This document shows positions 2,949 to 12,500 of a DNA stretch of 23,649 bases, one piece after another. How positions within the stretch are numbered: the stretch's first letter is position 1; each line of letters begins with the position of its first letter. The notes under the pieces are model-generated. The model saw nothing but the letters and a program-made list of their open reading frames with translations, did not search any database and was not told the DNA's origin. The translations under genes were made by a program, and so were the position numbers. This DNA comes from a virus, in IMG/VR virus record IMGVR_UViG_3300025824_000005, positions 1 to 23,649 of that record; one strand, given 5' to 3'.

Positions 2949-3500
2949 TTAAGATTGCCCGCCACGAACCGGACGCACATAACACATATCCCAAGGTCTG
3001 CCCCATGTCGTTTTATAACCGTCATAGGGATACATACACCACGCTCCGTCCGGCCAAGGCGCGCAGATTGTTGACGACCAGAACGGCGTCCATTGATCCG
3101 GTGGGTACGCAAAAAACATTGTGTCCCATGCCGGATCGTATCTCGAATGATCAACCATGGACATAAGCTCGTTTATATTCGGCATACGCCAGTCATCATG
3201 CCCGGCAAAAACAAAGTTCTCACAGGCATTAATAGCGTCATACCAATACATGGTCATCCCCAGCCCGACCGCCTGCGGATCCTTGATCCACATAAGACCG
3301 GTTACCGTATCGACCACAGTGCCGTCGCCGTTATCAATAAACCTCTGTCCGCCGCCAAGCGGATAGCCCATCTGATAATATCCATCATCACCCATCTGAT
3401 AAATCATCGTCTGTCCGGTCTTGGGCAGGCCGCCTTCCGTGGTTATTTCATTAACCCGGGTTATGATCCTGTTCTTTTTCTGATGCTTAATATGCTCCAT
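2949..3500 (-). CDS. DUF1566 (Lcl C-terminal-like, C-type-lectin-fold) adhesin-like protein
   Basis: A 183-residue protein with a strong SD (AGGAGG) before its ATG. After about 45 variable residues comes an essentially complete DUF1566 domain: RFIDNGDGTVVDTVTGLMW near 53-71, FAGHDDWRMPNINELMSMVD near 97-117, WTPFWSSTICA near 137-147 and YVRPVRGGQ at the C-terminus. DUF1566 is related to the C-type-lectin/FGE fold and is common in surface and tail-fibre proteins as a ligand-binding unit. Placement next to the virion-like gene and the radical SAM genes suggests a receptor-binding or fibre-tip role. The domain end rich in W, Y and D is where lectin-fold proteins vary, but no reverse transcriptase or template repeat is in the window. 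Confidence 0.85.
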   Translation of the reverse strand: MEHIKHQKKNRIITRVNEITTEGGLPKTGQTMIYQMGDDGYYQMGYPLGGGQRFIDNGDGTVVDTVTGLMWIKDPQAVGLGMTMYWYDAINACENFVFAGHDDWRMPNINELMSMVDHSRYDPAWDTMFFAYPPDQWTPFWSSTICAPWPDGAWCMYPYDGYKTTWGRPWDMCYVRPVRGGQS

Positions 3501-3515
3501 TTGAATTCCTCCTTT

Positions 3516-3806
3516 TTAGCTTTCGTAGGTCACAACGAGCTTGCCCGCGTCATCACCAGCCTTTATCACCCTGAAATCCTTTATGTGATAAATAGACGGA
3601 AGCTCGATTATATCGCCTTCCTCAAGCAACACGCCCGATGACACGCTCGGGTTCTGCCCATTAACGAAATACCGCATCGCCCCGCCTTCTGAACAAACCA
3701 TAGCGAATGACGCAGACTGACCGCCTGCCGGATTGTAAACAGCCTGGCTCAACGCCTTAGCGACATTCTCAACAACTATCTCCTCGTGACTCATCACTTT
3801 TCCCAT
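3516..3806 (-). CDS. small phage virion-like beta protein (head fibre or decoration type)
   Basis: A 96-residue protein with AGGAGG before the ATG. The pattern AKALSQAV, SFAMVCSEGGAMRYFVNGQN, then PSVSSGVLLEEGDIIELPS and IKDFRVIKAGDDAGKLVVTY looks like small beta-sandwich proteins often encoded near phage structural genes. Those typically carry an IRyr.DG..PT...G.ll..Gd.i.L motif. Family assignment is from memory and not verified. It lies directly after the third radical SAM gene, 13 bases downstream, so it is also a possible substrate of those enzymes, although it has only one cysteine. Confidence 0.65.
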   Translation of the reverse strand: MGKVMSHEEIVVENVAKALSQAVYNPAGGQSASFAMVCSEGGAMRYFVNGQNPSVSSGVLLEEGDIIELPSIYHIKDFRVIKAGDDAGKLVVTYES

Positions 3807-3819
3807 TGCCGTACCTCCT

Positions 3820-4977
3820 TTATTTAGTTTTGAACGCCTCTAATATTTCCTCATTCTGCTTGGCAACATCCACCAAAACCTGCCCGACTTTGTAAAGCAT
3901 CCGCTCCCTGCGGTCGCCTAACTCCACCGTCAAATACCTCGCCGCCTCGTCGTGCTCGAGCCTACACAACTTGCAGTATTTCTCGATTGGCTGGGCAAGA
4001 TCGCTATTGACCTTGTGATGCGTGATCACGCAACTATGGCAAGACGAAGCCGCCGGGCAATTCTTCCAGCAACCGGTGTATTCTTTATTGATGCTCAAAA
4101 ATACACCCCGGATAAACGGCCTCTCCTCAAAGATGTTGCCCAGCTTGAACACCCGGGCACTGGCCGCGCGGTGACATGGATACACATCGCCGTCCGACAA
4201 TATCGCCAGATAGGATTTCCCTGCTTCACAGAAATTCGACTCCGGCGGCACCTCGTCGTTAACAATCTTGAGCGGTTTATCGATGAACGCGATCTGAAGC
4301 GGGATCCCCTGCCGCTGACAATACCTGCGGTAGTGATACAGCTGATTGAGCTGATAGGCATATTTTTGAACCGCCTCATCCGTCCAGTCCGCTTCCATGA
4401 CCGCATGGTGCATGATCTTCTGCGCCCCCACATCCTGATGCAGAAACTGCACATTGATCGACAACCGGCCGACCGTCTTGGGCGTATACGTCATCCGCAC
4501 GCCTAAGTCCGGAAACACCGCGAGCATCTTCTTTGTGTTCTCAATGACCTTTGCCCAGTTGCCTTTTCGATGCTCCATGGTCGTGATCTCATCGCCGTCA
4601 CAACTGACCTGAATTGAAAACTGAAGCTCTTTGAATTGCTGAAAGACCTCCTCATCAAAGAACGTGCCATTCGTAGACACGCTGAAGACCGCCATGTGCC
4701 TGCCATCGATATCCGGCCAGAGTTCCCGGGCATACCGCGCCAAGTCCAAAACCGTCTGCGGAAATAACAGCGGCTCGCCGCCAAAGAATGTAATTTGAAG
4801 CCCATCCGGACTGATTACCTTCATTCGATCTAAAATCTTTTTGCCCTGATCCACTAAAAGCACGCCGTCACTTTTCGGATGAAAGCAATACTCACAATCC
4901 ATGTTGCACCGCTCTGTCACAAACAGATCGATGCTCCGGATTTCATTCTTATTCTTGCCACCCACTAAATCCCGCAT
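3820..4977 (-). CDS. radical SAM/SPASM protein, third of tandem cassette
   Basis: The ATG at 4975-4977 was chosen because AGGGG lies 7 bases upstream; it overlaps the preceding gene by 13 bases. The product is 385 residues. The radical SAM cluster motif is C24-NMD-C28-EY-C31, followed by GGEP at 66-69 and STNGTF near 101. The C-terminal SPASM region has C250, C268, C303, C307, C313, C316, C335 and C338, able to hold auxiliary iron-sulfur clusters. SPASM enzymes modify peptides or proteins (for example sulfatase maturases and RiPP-modifying enzymes) using SAM and an electron donor. The substrate is unknown. It differs from the other two copies in the linker and tail, so it is not a recent duplicate. 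Confidence 0.92.
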   Translation of the reverse strand: MRDLVGGKNKNEIRSIDLFVTERCNMDCEYCFHPKSDGVLLVDQGKKILDRMKVISPDGLQITFFGGEPLLFPQTVLDLARYARELWPDIDGRHMAVFSVSTNGTFFDEEVFQQFKELQFSIQVSCDGDEITTMEHRKGNWAKVIENTKKMLAVFPDLGVRMTYTPKTVGRLSINVQFLHQDVGAQKIMHHAVMEADWTDEAVQKYAYQLNQLYHYRRYCQRQGIPLQIAFIDKPLKIVNDEVPPESNFCEAGKSYLAILSDGDVYPCHRAASARVFKLGNIFEERPFIRGVFLSINKEYTGCWKNCPAASSCHSCVITHHKVNSDLAQPIEKYCKLCRLEHDEAARYLTVELGDRRERMLYKVGQVLVDVAKQNEEILEAFKTK

Positions 4978-7237: not shown

Positions 7238-7614
7238 TTCCATTCCAAGTGATAAAGATTCGTATCAACCTCAACCGTCTCGAATCCAAGACGGTCTTTG
7301 ATATTTTTCTTCTGCTCATCGGTCAGAGGCATAATGCCCGCGAGATACAACTCGCCTTTTTTCTCGCCAGATATAAAGAAACTGAAATTTGCAATCTTGC
7401 CGCGTTCATCGATGATCCCCAAACCTTGAATGGTCAGCTTTAACGCATTGCTGAAATCCTCTGGCTTATCAAACCGCCCCTTCGTGAACCCATTAACCCG
7501 CTGATCATCAAGATTCATCCGCACCCAATAAATGAGTTCGGTCACAGGATTGTCCTTCGTGTCTTTTGCGACCTTCAATGTCTTTGGCTTACTTGCCTCA
7601 AAACTCGGAAACAT
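7234..7614 (-). CDS. 126-aa protein of unknown function upstream of radical SAM genes
   Basis: The start codon at 7612-7614 has GAGG 5 bases upstream. The product looks mixed alpha/beta: TELIYWVRMNLDDQRVNGFT, then an EDFSNALKLTIQGLGIID helix-strand, FSFFISGEKKGELYLAGIM, and a C-terminal FETVEVDTNLYHLEWK. There are no cysteines, membrane segment or signal peptide. It is coupled to the first radical SAM gene by a 4-base overlap, so it may be a partner protein, a substrate or a virion component. I do not recognise the family, and it does not look like the PqqD/RRE domain of RiPP systems. Confidence 0.7.
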   Translation of the reverse strand: MFPSFEASKPKTLKVAKDTKDNPVTELIYWVRMNLDDQRVNGFTKGRFDKPEDFSNALKLTIQGLGIIDERGKIANFSFFISGEKKGELYLAGIMPLTDEQKKNIKDRLGFETVEVDTNLYHLEWK

Positions 7615-7620
7615 ATATCC

Positions 7621-8343
7621 TCACCATGTGTACGGATTGCATTTGCAATTCCAGTCCGAATGCACCGCGCCCCAGTTATACCCGGGTGGCGTATAGTTAC
7701 ACTGCGGCGACCACGGCACATATCCATCCCAAGGTGTCGTGTTTAACGGCTCACCGGAAGCCGTTTTATACGGATGCGTCGTCCCCCCGGGCAGGTTGTA
7801 ACTCGCGCAAATCCTGTGATCTACCATGCTGTGATGACACTCGCTGTATTTGTGGTCATCGCAAGCAACCCCCGCGTGCGAACACGTCTGATAGTAATAC
7901 CCGCAATCCGCGCAATACTGACACTGTTCTGCCTCACAAATACAGCCGGTCATTAACGCCTGCAGTTTCGACCGCAATTCGGAAACGTGATCATTCCTCG
8001 CCTTAATGGTGTTCGCCGTAAGCGTCGGATCCGTAAAATCCATACACCCGGACGAATCTTGCACGCAATACCCCGACTCGCCCCTGCCGGTCTTAACGTT
8101 CTGCAACTCCACCCGCAATTCAGCAACATGATCGTTGCGGATTTTAATAAGATCAGCTGTAAGCGTTACGTCTGTAAACGTCGCTGTCGACAAACCCCGG
8201 CGCGTGAACTCCAGATTGACCTTTGTCCGCAGTTCCTCGACATGGTCATTCCTTACCTTAATCGTATTGGCGGTCAAAGCCGGATCCGTCCACGTCGGCG
8301 TATTTACCGGACACTGTTTTGGCGGTAATTTATGCTCTGGCAT
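7621..8343 (-). CDS. Cys-rich phage protein with three TDPTLTANTIK..RNDHV.ELR repeats
   Basis: A 240-residue protein with AAAGGA before its ATG, 7 bases after the fibre gene. Residues 18-42, 56-81 and 103-128 are three diverged copies of FTDPTLTANTIKxRNDHVxEL. From memory, similar TDP.lta...ikavH..ELR modules occur in bacterial secreted or surface proteins. The C-terminal 107 residues hold 12 cysteines (134, 136, 141, 144, 147, 154, 161, 169, 179, 215, 233, 235) plus many His, Tyr, Trp and Pro. This part could bind metal, form disulfides, or be a substrate for the radical SAM enzymes encoded just downstream. Most likely it is a fibre or appendage protein; the function is not established. Confidence 0.8.
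   Translation of the reverse strand: MPEHKLPPKQCPVNTPTWTDPALTANTIKVRNDHVEELRTKVNLEFTRRGLSTATFTDVTLTADLIKIRNDHVAELRVELQNVKTGRGESGYCVQDSSGCMDFTDPTLTANTIKARNDHVSELRSKLQALMTGCICEAEQCQYCADCGYYYQTCSHAGVACDDHKYSECHHSMVDHRICASYNLPGGTTHPYKTASGEPLNTTPWDGYVPWSPQCNYTPPGYNWGAVHSDWNCKCNPYTW
7960..8292 (-). repeat. three diverged tandem protein repeats within the Cys-rich gene
   Basis: The units span 8218-8292, 8101-8178 and 7960-8037. Each encodes about 25 residues with TADP/TDPTLTA, NTIK.RNDHV and ELR in the same order. Nucleotide identity is only partial, so the copies are old and kept by selection on the protein. The first and third copies share GGATCCG within the repeat. Confidence 0.85.
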
Positions 8344-8350
8344 CTATCCT

Positions 8351-9391
8351 TTACTCCGCATACGTCGCGTTCGGGAACGCGAACTCTAAACCTGTTTCAT
8401 CAGCCTTCACCCTGACAGACTTTCCTGCCTGCCCGGTATAGTTGGACGGACAATCCGTCAAGGCAACGAAAGACGACATCCCCAGTAAAAACAAAGGCCG
8501 GACATCCTTATATATGTAGGCGTCGTTAGGATTAGCGTCCTTGCTCTCATAATCCACGACCTTGGTCATTGTCGGCTTGCAATACACAAGGCATATCGGA
8601 AACTTCCCCGATGGAAACGCTGGCTCTGCCGGGTTAGACGCCTCCGCGCCGGTCGTCCATTCCAATACGCCTGCCGAGTTGATCGTCAGCAAATCGATCC
8701 TTGGATTAGCACCCGGCGCTGTTATAAGCGATGATGCCCCGCCTGCGTAAGTTAACCTTGTTGATCCGATATAAATGTTCTGATAAAACCCGCCGACCAA
8801 AGCCGAAGCAACCGCCACATTCATTCCGCACACTGCCGTAATGGTGTCGAATAGAAAAGTCTGGGAAGCTGGCAATTGATAAAACCCAAAATCGGTGATA
8901 TTTGACAACACTGCCGCTGTGCCGTTGTTTCCATCAGGCGTCGCCAAGGTTAGAGTGTCTTTTTTCCAAGTCCCCGCCGTCCCATGAGAAGTCAAATTCC
9001 AATAGCTCACATGCCCAAGGTTATCTTCAAGGAAGAACCTAAAAGCCTGACTCGCGCCTGAGCACCTCTCCCATAGCGTAATCTGTTTAAAACTGGACAA
9101 ATTAACGCCCTTAATAAGCGTGACCTGCCGGTTAGGCGTCGCGTCAATCACACACTGCAAGGCATAATTACCTTCCTGCTTCGTAGTTGAACGCGTAACC
9201 GTCACGCCAGTTCCCGACCATTTGGCTTGAGCCACTGCATCCGTTGAATACTCAAGGTCATCCAATACCATTGATGACCGAGGCCGTAACGCAAACAAAT
9301 CTCCTTGAAATAAAGCCCGCAAAACATTGCGAACATTTTCCAGCGACATAGAACCTGTCGGCTGGTTTGGATCGAAAATATGTCTTTCCAT
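8351..9391 (-). CDS. tail fibre / receptor-binding-type protein
   Basis: A 346-residue protein. The ATG at 9389-9391 has AAAGG 6 bases upstream; a TTG two codons earlier is less likely. The middle (about 45-180) begins VLDDLEYSTDAVAQAKW and includes ITLWERCSG and FRFFLEDNLGHVSYW, a jelly-roll layout like carbohydrate-binding or discoidin-type domains. The C-terminus has FVALTDCPSNYTGQAGKSVR followed by VKADETGLEF, close to a motif common at the ends of phage tail-fibre proteins. It follows the tail hub and a mini zinc ribbon. It probably sits at the tail tip and binds cell-surface sugar. Assignment rests on domain style and gene order. Confidence 0.75.
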   Translation of the reverse strand: MERHIFDPNQPTGSMSLENVRNVLRALFQGDLFALRPRSSMVLDDLEYSTDAVAQAKWSGTGVTVTRSTTKQEGNYALQCVIDATPNRQVTLIKGVNLSSFKQITLWERCSGASQAFRFFLEDNLGHVSYWNLTSHGTAGTWKKDTLTLATPDGNNGTAAVLSNITDFGFYQLPASQTFLFDTITAVCGMNVAVASALVGGFYQNIYIGSTRLTYAGGASSLITAPGANPRIDLLTINSAGVLEWTTGAEASNPAEPAFPSGKFPICLVYCKPTMTKVVDYESKDANPNDAYIYKDVRPLFLLGMSSFVALTDCPSNYTGQAGKSVRVKADETGLEFAFPNATYAE

Positions 9392-9393
9392 GA

Positions 9394-9531
9394 TCAACCT
9401 TTCTTCTTAATAATTTCCGTATCGCATGCCGGACACTTGCCGGTGTACGCTTTGGTTCCGTTTTTCAGCGTGCTTTCTTTTAACTCCGCAATCTCAACCA
9501 ACACCTTGCATGTCGCGCAATAGCCCTTCAT
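9394..9531 (-). CDS. 45-aa zinc-ribbon protein (DUF5679-like)
   Basis: The ATG at 9529-9531 has AAAGGA about 7 bases upstream, just after the tail-hub stop. The peptide begins MKGYCATCKVLVEIAELKES and later has KCPACDTEIIKKKG, so two CxxC knuckles are about 28 residues apart. This matches the tiny DUF5679-type zinc ribbon frequent in phages and prophages. It probably binds one zinc ion; its role in tail or late expression is unknown. Confidence 0.8.
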   Translation of the reverse strand: MKGYCATCKVLVEIAELKESTLKNGTKAYTGKCPACDTEIIKKKG

Positions 9532-9532
9532 A

Positions 9533-12500
9533 TCAATATCCTTTCACGTCGATATCAACCTCAGCGGTGCCAATGGCCGCGCCGTTACGGTCATAAACCT
9601 TGATATCGCACTGTGTCGTTGTTTTATTGGAAACGATCGGCATGCCGACAATGCCGTTGACGATCGTCACCGTAATCCTCGGCGGGTAATTAAAACCAGT
9701 ACCGAATAAAATCGTCTTTCCCTGCACCGGAATTGCCACATCTCTAAACCACGAAAGTTTTGTCACCGGCGCGTTGATATAAAGCCGACAACTATAAAAA
9801 TAAAAATGATGACTCGGATCAGTTGTCGAAATCACGAATTTGAACTTAATATAGCGGCCGGTGTAAGTCGTGAATGCATCAATAGGCGCAAATTCCGTAT
9901 AACTTACCCCGTCCGATGAAACACTTATCTGCACCTCAAGCGAACCGCCCGAAACATTCTTAAAATCCGCGTCGATAATCACCTTGAACTCAAACACCGT
10001 AAGTAAATCAATCGGTGAGAGCATCTCAAAAAAACCGGTCGTCTTAGTCTGGCCATTTAAATTCAAGCCGCCGCCAGTCTCTTGCGCCTCCCACGTCAAC
10101 CCTTGCGCCTGTCGATCCTCCCAAAACATATCCGTCTTTAAACACAACGCTGGCCGGACATACCCTGAATCGAAATCGTTCGTGTAAACCAACTCAACGT
10201 TGCTCAATCGATACTGCAGATCCTGACTCCACAAATCGAAGTCATTGATAAAATTCATCTCTGGCGGCGGGGTAATGACTATCGAATCCATCCCGGGTGA
10301 TGGGCTTTCATTACCGGACGTATCAACCGCCTTGATCATGAACGTCACATTACCGATCTCACCTACCGGATACATAAACTCCGTTGTATCCGTCCTCTCT
10401 GCGATCACTTGACCGGCATTCCACTCCGAACCTTTCCTGATCACATACCGGGCAAGATCCGCATCCGCGATCGCATCCCAGCTGAACCTTAAAAAATTAC
10501 CCTCCTGTGAAACCTCGAATCCGGTAACATCCGATGGCGGGTTGAGTTTTCCCAAGACTGTCAAATCAGAAGATTCCAAACCGTCTGATACGATCCCATT
10601 AATCGATACAGTCCTGACCTTAATCCGATACGTCTGCTCATCTTCAACGCCAAAGACCGTGAAATATGTATCTGTCGTTGTCCCGACAACCTTATAATCC
10701 TCCGCGCCTTTTTTGAGTTCAATCTGATAATGGCTCAAGAAAATCTTTGAATCATCCGTCGGCCCGTCAAAGCTGACCAGAATATCTGAGCCAACCGTTC
10801 CGTCGCGATGCAGATAGTAAAGACTTTCTGAAATCTGAATGCTGGAAACCTCTCCCACCGGCGCGTAAGGATTCGGCGGCGTGCCATAATCAAACGACTG
10901 AATTGTCGCGCCGTAACGGTCGTTATAAATCGTAGGGTTATATTCCTGCGCCGTTATTTTGAATAGATCCCGCTCATCTTCCTCAATGCGCTGAATGATA
11001 AACTGCTTATTCGTCCAACCCATCAATGAGTGCGTAACTTCAATAACGTCACCGATCTCCTGACCTATGGCGTTAAGCGAAGTTGTAAACTCCACACAGA
11101 TCGGGCAAAGTTTAAGCTCGTAAAAATATTGATTGCTCAACCGAGAAGCCTGCGTCTTGCGGTTAATGGACGGAATCGTTAATGTCTGCTCGACAAGCCC
11201 GCGTTCGTCCTGATCAACCTTGTCCTCCGCGCCCCACGCAAGGATCCTTGCGTCATCCTGCGTCGGATCGAAATACTCGATACCGAAACGGTTAATCTTC
11301 TGATCCAACCCCTTCTGAATCACCTTTAAATCCGTGATGTCATCCTCGTCGAATGATGCAACCGCGCTCTGGGTCTTGGCCACCAGCAATTTGAGCTTTG
11401 AACCGCTACGTATAAGCGCGCCCGCGAACCCCACCAACATCTCGGTGAGGTTATCTGAAGCCGTTCGTTTCTGATCAATCACAAACGAAACGGTATACCT
11501 TGACTCCTGCCCTCCCTGACCGTTTGATACCAGATCCACACAGTAGTCATAGACCTCACCAAACGACATATCGTCGATATCCGCTGTAAGATACCCGCAC
11601 CCGCCGACCTGCATCTTCATCAAAAGATAATCACGGATACATGCCGACGGATTATCCGAATACGAATGTCCGGCCGACCACGCCGAACCGTTCCATGTCG
11701 AAACTTTCCGGCCACGGCATATACACGTTACGTTCGGCCTGCCGCCTTTTAACTTATCCGAGGTTTCCAGATGAACATGAAGCATGGCGGTATTGTGATA
11801 TTGAATACCGTCTAAATCCAGCCCCGTATCCGTCTGCACATTTTGTGCAGGCGTTCCCAAGAATGCACGATACGAACACCCGGGAAAGTTGCCAATCACC
11901 TCACCGTTTAACCTGACATCCGTAATGCTTTCAATTTCGCCCGCGCAAAGAACGATAAGCAAGTCTATCTGCTCGCCGCCCATCACCGGATTTTGATAAA
12001 CGATATTGCCGCCCAATCGCGCCTCGCCGTAAAGCACCGGCACCGGATATTGATTGCTGGATGTAGTCTGCAACTCTCCAAATTGATATCGGGGTGAAGA
12101 CGACGACCCGCCGCTTTTTGACGTCTGCCGTGCCTGAATAGCCAATCCAATCGAATACCCGATTAAAGCCGTACCAATCAAATAGCCAATCGTAGTAAGC
12201 GACAAAGCGATCAAACCACCGGCAATGAAAGACGCCACGGCGTAATCCGCAATCACCAGCGCAATTGCAATAGCCACTGGGGGCCCCGCTGGCGGGATAT
12301 AAATCTTGCCGTCCTTCTCTCTGATAGCAAAAAGGAAGTATTTTTCCCAAGACGACGTGAGCCGCGAAATACGGGATTTACCGTCCTTCTTAGCATGAAG
12401 CATGCGGCCATAACCGAGATACAACCCGACATGCAATTCGTCGTTGATCTTAAAAACCAGAACGTCTTCGGGCTGAATGCCCTCAAGTAGAACAATCGTG

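Follow-up and report, generated by a model that had tools for sequence, protein, structure and literature searches.

The 240-aa Cys-rich protein encoded in the window (the whole 23.6-kb virus contig analysed here, 23,649 nt of IMG/VR record IMGVR_UViG_3300025824_000005) is, at a probability that we put at roughly three in four, a dedicated substrate that is cross-linked by its three SPASM radical SAM enzymes and built into the tail or fibre tip. That rsA, rsB and rsC act on this protein as a substrate-enzyme pairing is very likely, judging from the genes and their arrangement. Its presence in the virion, at the tail tip, is likely from the position of the gene, which comes after the J and fibre genes. 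In the proposed mechanism the N-terminal repeats would be the fixed part, for enzyme recognition and/or anchoring beside the tail fibre, and the Cys-rich protein would be the dedicated substrate of the three co-encoded enzymes, which would act in the reducing cytoplasm of the anaerobic host. There the C-terminal domain would be cross-linked, most likely by thioethers from Cys to nearby Asp/Glu (Thr/Asn in other types), and the finished protein would join the tail or fibre, where it would form a rigid, host-contacting tip that withstands oxygen and proteases. It is very probable that phages cross-link a protein chemically by a route that has not been described before. The features are listed in Table 1.

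Table 1. Features of the Cys-rich protein module, its borders and two related Cys-rich proteins (window positions unless a locus is named).
Feature	Position	Strand	Remarks
Cys-rich repeat protein, 240 aa	7621..8343	-	ATG start; ORF and translation; proposed radical SAM substrate
N-terminal domain, residues 1-130, three helical repeats of ~25 aa	7954..8343	-	Proposed anchoring/recognition part
C-terminal Cys-rich domain, residues 131-240, 12 Cys	7624..7953	-	Proposed modified region
p126, accessory protein, 126 aa	7234..7614	-	Missing in L018 and L020
rsA, radical SAM/SPASM enzyme, 399 aa	6044..7243	-	Radical_SAM 1.8e-7, SPASM 6.6e-4
rsB, radical SAM/SPASM enzyme, 360 aa	4965..6047	-	Radical_SAM 1.9e-4, below Pfam cut-off; PapB family 91.8 bits
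rsC, radical SAM/SPASM enzyme, 385 aa	3820..4977	-	Radical_SAM 5.8e-16, SPASM 8.7e-7
Fibre-type tail protein, directly upstream of the Cys-rich protein gene	8351..9397	-	Weak PHROG tail match 2.5e-6; not in every relative
p96, first gene past the block, outside the module	3516..3806	-	Marks the right end of the swap; sister phages with the other block have it at 66-82% identity
Type-B Cys-rich protein (CCECECTCTCTCTC...EQCCSECDCGD)	L047:7427-8029, L048:5965-6540, L049:7380-7943, L050:7359-7934; also L052-L054, L066		
Repeat/Cys/Asp protein, 481 aa, overlapping a SPASM enzyme gene	L128:6001-7446 and 7403-8800		Enzyme PapB 225 bits

The minus-strand genes of the window lie in head-to-tail order, the names of the head genes being our reading of their ORFs, and at the end of this order a J-type tip protein is followed by a fibre-type protein and then by the gene for the Cys-rich protein. 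The repeats of the latter start at residues 18, 56 and 103 (WTDPALTANTIKVRNDHVEELRTKV, FTDVTLTADLIKIRNDHVAELRVEL and FTDPTLTANTIKARNDHVSELRSKL) and are pairwise identical at 15-19 of 25 positions. Twelve of its 15 Cys fall within residues 131-240, together with 7 His, 11 Tyr and 5 Trp; against a window background of 0.99% Cys (47 in the 4762 aa of the 18 other proteins) the binomial chance of at least 12 Cys per 110 aa is about 1e-9. The original prediction had described three repeats followed by 12 Cys amid many His, Tyr and Trp, which the ORF confirms, and had placed the gene two before the enzymes, the first of which is indeed the second gene downstream with the 126-aa gene p126 between. 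Sequence searches with the protein found no match among INPHARED phages and PLSDB plasmids, nothing credible in the PDB (with the protein or its profile) and no convincing match in PHROG; weak, sub-cut-off hits to Pfam FlgM and DUF7337 and to the NCBIfam fluorothreonine transaldolase were taken as chance. An AlphaFold model (12-row alignment) reached a pLDDT of 35, with helices in the N-terminal part only.

Relatives of the Cys-rich protein were found in IMG/VR (18 by sequence search, 19 by profile search) and in four GTDB genomes, with identities from 100% to 47%. In all 17 of the 19 viral contigs that extend past the gene it is followed by rsA, with rsB and rsC next where the sequence reaches, and radical SAM genes follow it in 4/4 genome loci; some contigs are near copies of one virus, so these counts are not independent events, and the scans used short peptide patterns that may miss distant relatives. 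In the reverse direction, the 17 viral contigs with rsA at no less than 35% identity and the 13 with rsC at no less than 50% are all on the list of those with the Cys-rich protein. Of 384 Omnitrophota genomes, three have the full-length protein, and these are also the three with rsA (E<1e-40). A query restricted to the repeat domain, and so carrying no information on the enzymes, returned 21 contigs, and the two additions (L128 and L129) both have SPASM enzymes directly downstream; L129 has two enzymes only, one rsC-like (38%) and one nearest to rsA (27%). Homologues that regularly lack radical SAM genes, the pattern that would speak against a substrate of the radical SAM cassette, were not seen in these contigs and genome loci, and the proposed role is supported by this co-conservation, by the block exchange described below and by the divergent homologues of L128 and L129.

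The core appears smaller than the full set of genes. No gene equivalent to p126 lies between the Cys-rich protein and rsA in L018 and L020, and p96 and the Lcl_C gene are absent in L023 and L024; by gene content the minimal module is the Cys-rich protein plus SPASM enzymes, with p126, p96 and lcl apparently dispensable. We read L018 as a contractile-tail type, with the module among T4-type baseplate genes, and L129 as placed among podovirus-like genes, contexts which suggest that this core moves between virion types.

Cys is the best conserved residue type in the protein, and the positions are kept, as the substrate proposal had led one to look for: 13 of 15 Cys are invariant in the whole protein and 11 of 12 in the C-terminal domain (12 aligned sequences), where the sole varying one is C154, a Tyr in the distant relative L018 only. 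Residues 131-179 are more conserved than the repeats in every relative but L018. E137, E139, D146 and D162 are invariant and each stands 0-6 residues after an invariant Cys, such that an invariant Asp/Glu lies within 0-6 residues for C134, C136, C141, C144 and C161 but not for C147, C154 and C179.

Three tandem radical SAM genes (rsA, rsB and rsC), overlapping one another by a few bases, follow p126, which itself begins 6 nt past the Cys-rich protein gene. From 8351 down to 3820 the genes are separated by gaps of 6-7 nt or overlap by 4-13 nt, which suggests one transcription and translation unit. A consensus scan of the minus strand over the module stretch found no sigma-70-like promoter, and the terminator-like stems of that strand are weak and lie inside genes. 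All three enzymes belong to the radical SAM/SPASM superfamily by a conserved CX3CX2C motif and SPASM-type Cys cluster, the motif being formed by C57/C61/C64 in rsA, C17/C21/C24 in rsB (which also has GGEP) and C24/C28/C31 in rsC (start taken as the ATG at 4977; the ORF list has TTG 5046). Only rsC passes the Pfam SPASM cut-off, rsA falling just under it and passing TIGR04085 (34.7 vs 27), and rsB is assigned by motif only. A defence role of the kind known from prokaryotic viperins was rejected, since the match (30-59 bits) is confined to the radical SAM core and does not span the whole enzyme. The accessory protein p126 has no match in Pfam, PHROG or NCBIfam, and its model is alpha/beta (pLDDT 78); p126 was considered as a candidate RRE, and a fold search of the predicted model against the PDB gave no match at E<=0.001. 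Pfam and NCBIfam likewise gave no match to an RRE (PqqD-like) in or near the enzymes.

For rsA and rsC the nearest solved structure is 5wgg (best PDB matches, 1.4e-27 and 2.5e-26, respectively), which we take to be CteB, the SCIFF maturase that forms a Cys-Thr thioether. The best family for all three enzymes is PapB (NF047865), yet their scores (103.7, 91.8 and 169 bits) stay below its cut-off of 340. The spacing of Cys and Asp/Glu in the window protein, 0-6 residues, agrees with the in vitro tolerance of PapB (PMC9413430). Non-alpha thioethers are known to form with Asp, Glu, Thr and Asn as acceptors (PMC8326336); several of the Cys-rich types described below are dominated by these residues, though the Ser/Gly-rich ones are not. 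Because CteB is the nearest structure, PapB the best family and known acceptor residues dominate several types, thioether bonds are our best guess for the chemistry and, by analogy with these enzymes, a moderately probable one. Scores of 92-169 bits against the PapB cut-off of 340 mean that the enzymes could do other chemistry, such as C-alpha thioethers, C-C/C-O bonds or epimerisation, or, in the B12 type, methylation. The retention of three divergent SPASM enzymes suggests that more than one reaction takes place, the tail part also has conserved Trp and Tyr (W211, W224, W231, W240, Y192 and Y217), and a B12-binding radical SAM enzyme belongs to the type-B block; even so, a C-alpha thioether, a C-C/C-O cyclophane on the conserved Trp/Tyr or a methylation as the modification placed on the Cys-rich protein is rather unlikely, as it is Cys that is the best conserved residue type and Cys density that is the one feature common to all types.

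Thioether cross-linking by SPASM enzymes invites comparison with known systems. The ranthipeptides PapA/PapB (freyrasin) and SCIFF (CteA/CteB) share with the window a Cys-rich substrate adjoining its SPASM enzymes, the best HMM and PDB matches, and Cys followed by Asp/Glu/Thr within a few residues; they differ in that the window has a 240-aa repeat-domain protein instead of a short leader, three tandem enzymes, a phage tail module and scores far under the cut-offs (73.7, 48.9 and 92.3 bits vs 425 for the SCIFF maturase, TIGR03974). In the QHNDH gamma subunit, as proposed here, a radical SAM enzyme (QhpD) cross-links Cys within a working protein and not a small peptide product, but the window module is virus-encoded, has no dehydrogenase genes and scores 57, 68.5 and 77.3 bits against the 453 of TIGR03906. 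The CXXX-repeat systems (TIGR04114 target; TIGR04115 and TIGR04119 enzymes) also join a Cys-repeat protein to a SPASM enzyme, and L095, a phage relative in the wider class, lies just over the TIGR04114 cut-off (21.3 vs 20 bits), whereas the window protein lacks a CXXX array and a match to TIGR04114, and its enzymes reach 63.7, 33.7 and 81.8 bits vs 350. By these cut-offs the window system is outside the PapB, SCIFF, CXXX and QhpD families and works like them on a larger, phage-encoded protein. The general RiPP pattern of a short precursor with leader and cleavage site is not that of the Cys-rich protein, in whose 240 aa no leader peptide or cleavage site was recognised, the repeats beginning at residue 18; the reservation that it is too long and leaderless thus holds against an ordinary RiPP and not against a substrate role.

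The window enzymes match phrog_1802 (radical SAM), and other Cys-rich proteins match phrog_6085 (Erwinia phage) and phrog_26958, both families of unknown function, but PHROG draws no connection between an enzyme and its substrate. In viruses of anoxic systems, tail spikes have been noted to be among the proteins richest in Cys, and one huge virus has 15 radical SAM enzymes (PMC9723712), although in those passages of that paper the two are not proposed as a pair. The literature on phage radical SAM genes that we searched, which did not extend to bioRxiv and most subscription papers, held no account of radical SAM maturases that form a pair with a Cys-rich protein of a phage.

The strongest evidence for a substrate-enzyme pairing comes from an exchange among sister phages in which Cys type and enzyme type switch together. 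Eight contigs (L047-L050, L052-L054 and L066) keep the genes downstream of the module (p96 66-82%, lcl 62-86% and p110 78-95% identical, where the contig reaches), and in them the module is replaced by a protein of 187-200 aa containing a CTCTCTCTC array and by one SPASM enzyme, to which the type-B block of the contig examined, L049, adds one B12-binding radical SAM enzyme. On the other side, L011, L017 and L021 have J (73-76%) and fibre (74-79%) proteins in common with the type-B phages, yet carry the window-type module; the window, L002 and L010 have the same module, but a J protein of only 31-33% identity and a fibre without a match to the type-B phages. The exchanged unit is therefore the Cys-rich protein with p126 and rsA/B/C, flanked by shared genes that are mostly 62-95% identical, and in these contigs the joint switch is independent of both flanks. 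As candidate substrates p96 and the Lcl_C protein were rejected, since both stay when the block is swapped and both are absent in L023/L024. The Lcl_C (DUF1566) domain protein (2949-3500) is well conserved across several sister phages and is possibly another host-binding protein.

Relatives in genomes point to Omnitrophota hosts. L021 lies in the closed chromosome of the predatory Omnitrophota bacterium Ca. Velamenicoccus archaeovorus LiM, in which ~1.855-1.887 Mb (L098-L100) holds the portal (79%), the capsid (76%), the module and, at one end, a recombinase-like ORF (YVIYTRCSTDDQAQGD), which together mark the locus as a prophage. Two further genome loci of the family are Omnitrophota MAGs. 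L023 (DCTF01000062.1) is filed as Ruminococcaceae UBA1447 with a phage of Omnitrophota type, and the bin or the name may be wrong. Long host proteins with the same repeats also exist in Omnitrophota (L101-L106); they are Cys-rich in five of the six loci examined (30-124 Cys), most have a signal-peptide-like start, and the flanks read held no radical SAM neighbour. Repeats and Cys alone therefore do not demand such enzymes, and because these proteins exist the phage repeat domain may have been taken from host surface proteins.

The same secreted-looking, Cys-rich host proteins lend something to the view that the Cys of the phage protein form extracellular disulfides or bind metal, while the enzymes have some other target, a virion protein or a small molecule, and the Cys-rich gene is a mere neighbour. 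A metal site is compatible with the low-confidence fold; no confident metal fold using all Cys, the other result that would have told against the prediction, was seen, and a model of pLDDT 35 is too poor to exclude one. We nevertheless regard this reading as improbable, as the Cys-rich gene and the enzymes are swapped jointly while fibre/J on one side and p96/lcl on the other stay, p126, p96 and lcl are dispensable, other Cys-rich types bring their own SPASM enzymes, and runs such as CTCTCTC and CPCNCDFC seem to have little in common with the folds of zinc or disulfide proteins. Phage tail regions often contain accessory genes, and the nearest enzymes are of ranthipeptide and sactipeptide type, but a product that is released by lysis or secretion as a modified toxin or signal peptide, like bacterial RiPPs, is more doubtful still, given that the ORFs next to the Cys-rich protein include none recognisable as a protease, transporter or immunity gene (Pfam, PHROG and NCBIfam), that no leader or cleavage site was seen, and that siphovirus-, myovirus- and podovirus-like contigs all have the gene next to fibre-like ones. 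L018, L020, L049 and L050, too, have immediately upstream a fibre-like ORF with TYxA or VYA at its end.

A cross-linked tip protein made by co-encoded SPASM enzymes may have counterparts in other phages. Within 3 kb of the radical SAM gene, 12 of 24 further viral or phage loci found via rsC or rsA have an ORF with at least 10 Cys per 60 aa; the remaining half or so of these distant loci have no Cys-rich neighbour. Such ORFs number 16 of 197 within 3 kb of radical SAM genes vs none of 161 further off (Fisher 9e-5, the ORFs and loci being not fully independent). The Cys-rich parts vary by type (CTCTCTC, CNARCSCDCNYACTC, CNCNFCPCNCDFC, CDSDPCACDAADNC and CSGCSGC), and the N-terminal profile of the window protein matches type B at 90.8%, the L058 type at 90.3% and the L059/L061/L095 type at 78.4%, vs a probability of 0.1% for an unrelated control. 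The design recurs in unrelated phages, in which SPASM enzymes follow a protein that joins a related repeat domain to another kind of Cys-rich domain. The L128 protein, encoded immediately ahead of a SPASM enzyme, has similar repeats and then 366 residues with 87 Cys and 79 Asp, which makes it an attractive test substrate. We suggest tentatively, at somewhat short of even odds, that phages of anaerobes have widespread, modular, cross-linked virion adhesins in which a repeat anchor carries an exchangeable Cys tip that moves with its own maturases (SPASM, sometimes B12-dependent), the tip chemistry being the diversifying part of host recognition.

Radical SAM genes of phages tend to be labelled as orphans or as auxiliary metabolic genes; some of them would thereby gain concrete substrates. 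Structural proteins cross-linked by radical chemistry are predicted in viruses, and could account for Cys-rich orphan families such as phrog_6085 and phrog_26958. If true, phages of anaerobes have a new way to build a stable tip, and enzymes that cross-link peptides gain a supply of large, modular substrates. The idea is directly testable in the prophage relative of the closed Ca. Velamenicoccus archaeovorus genome, a bacterium for which public proteomes exist.

No Cys-rich neighbour was found for the radical SAM gene of Campylobacter phage CP220. The isolated Erwinia phage ChrisDB (L092:4154-4942) has gp187 (phrog_6085) and an unannotated short Cys-rich ORF near two radical SAM genes. Very Cys-rich proteins, with up to 81 Cys per 364 aa and at times in tandem copies, stand amid two to four radical SAM genes in L056:5656-6878, L058:5892-6485 and L059:136-2040 and 9222-10316. 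A 989-aa protein with 44 Cys in total, Cys-rich near residue 770, overlaps a radical SAM gene in L062:4829-7798 and is possibly the same idea within a large tail protein.
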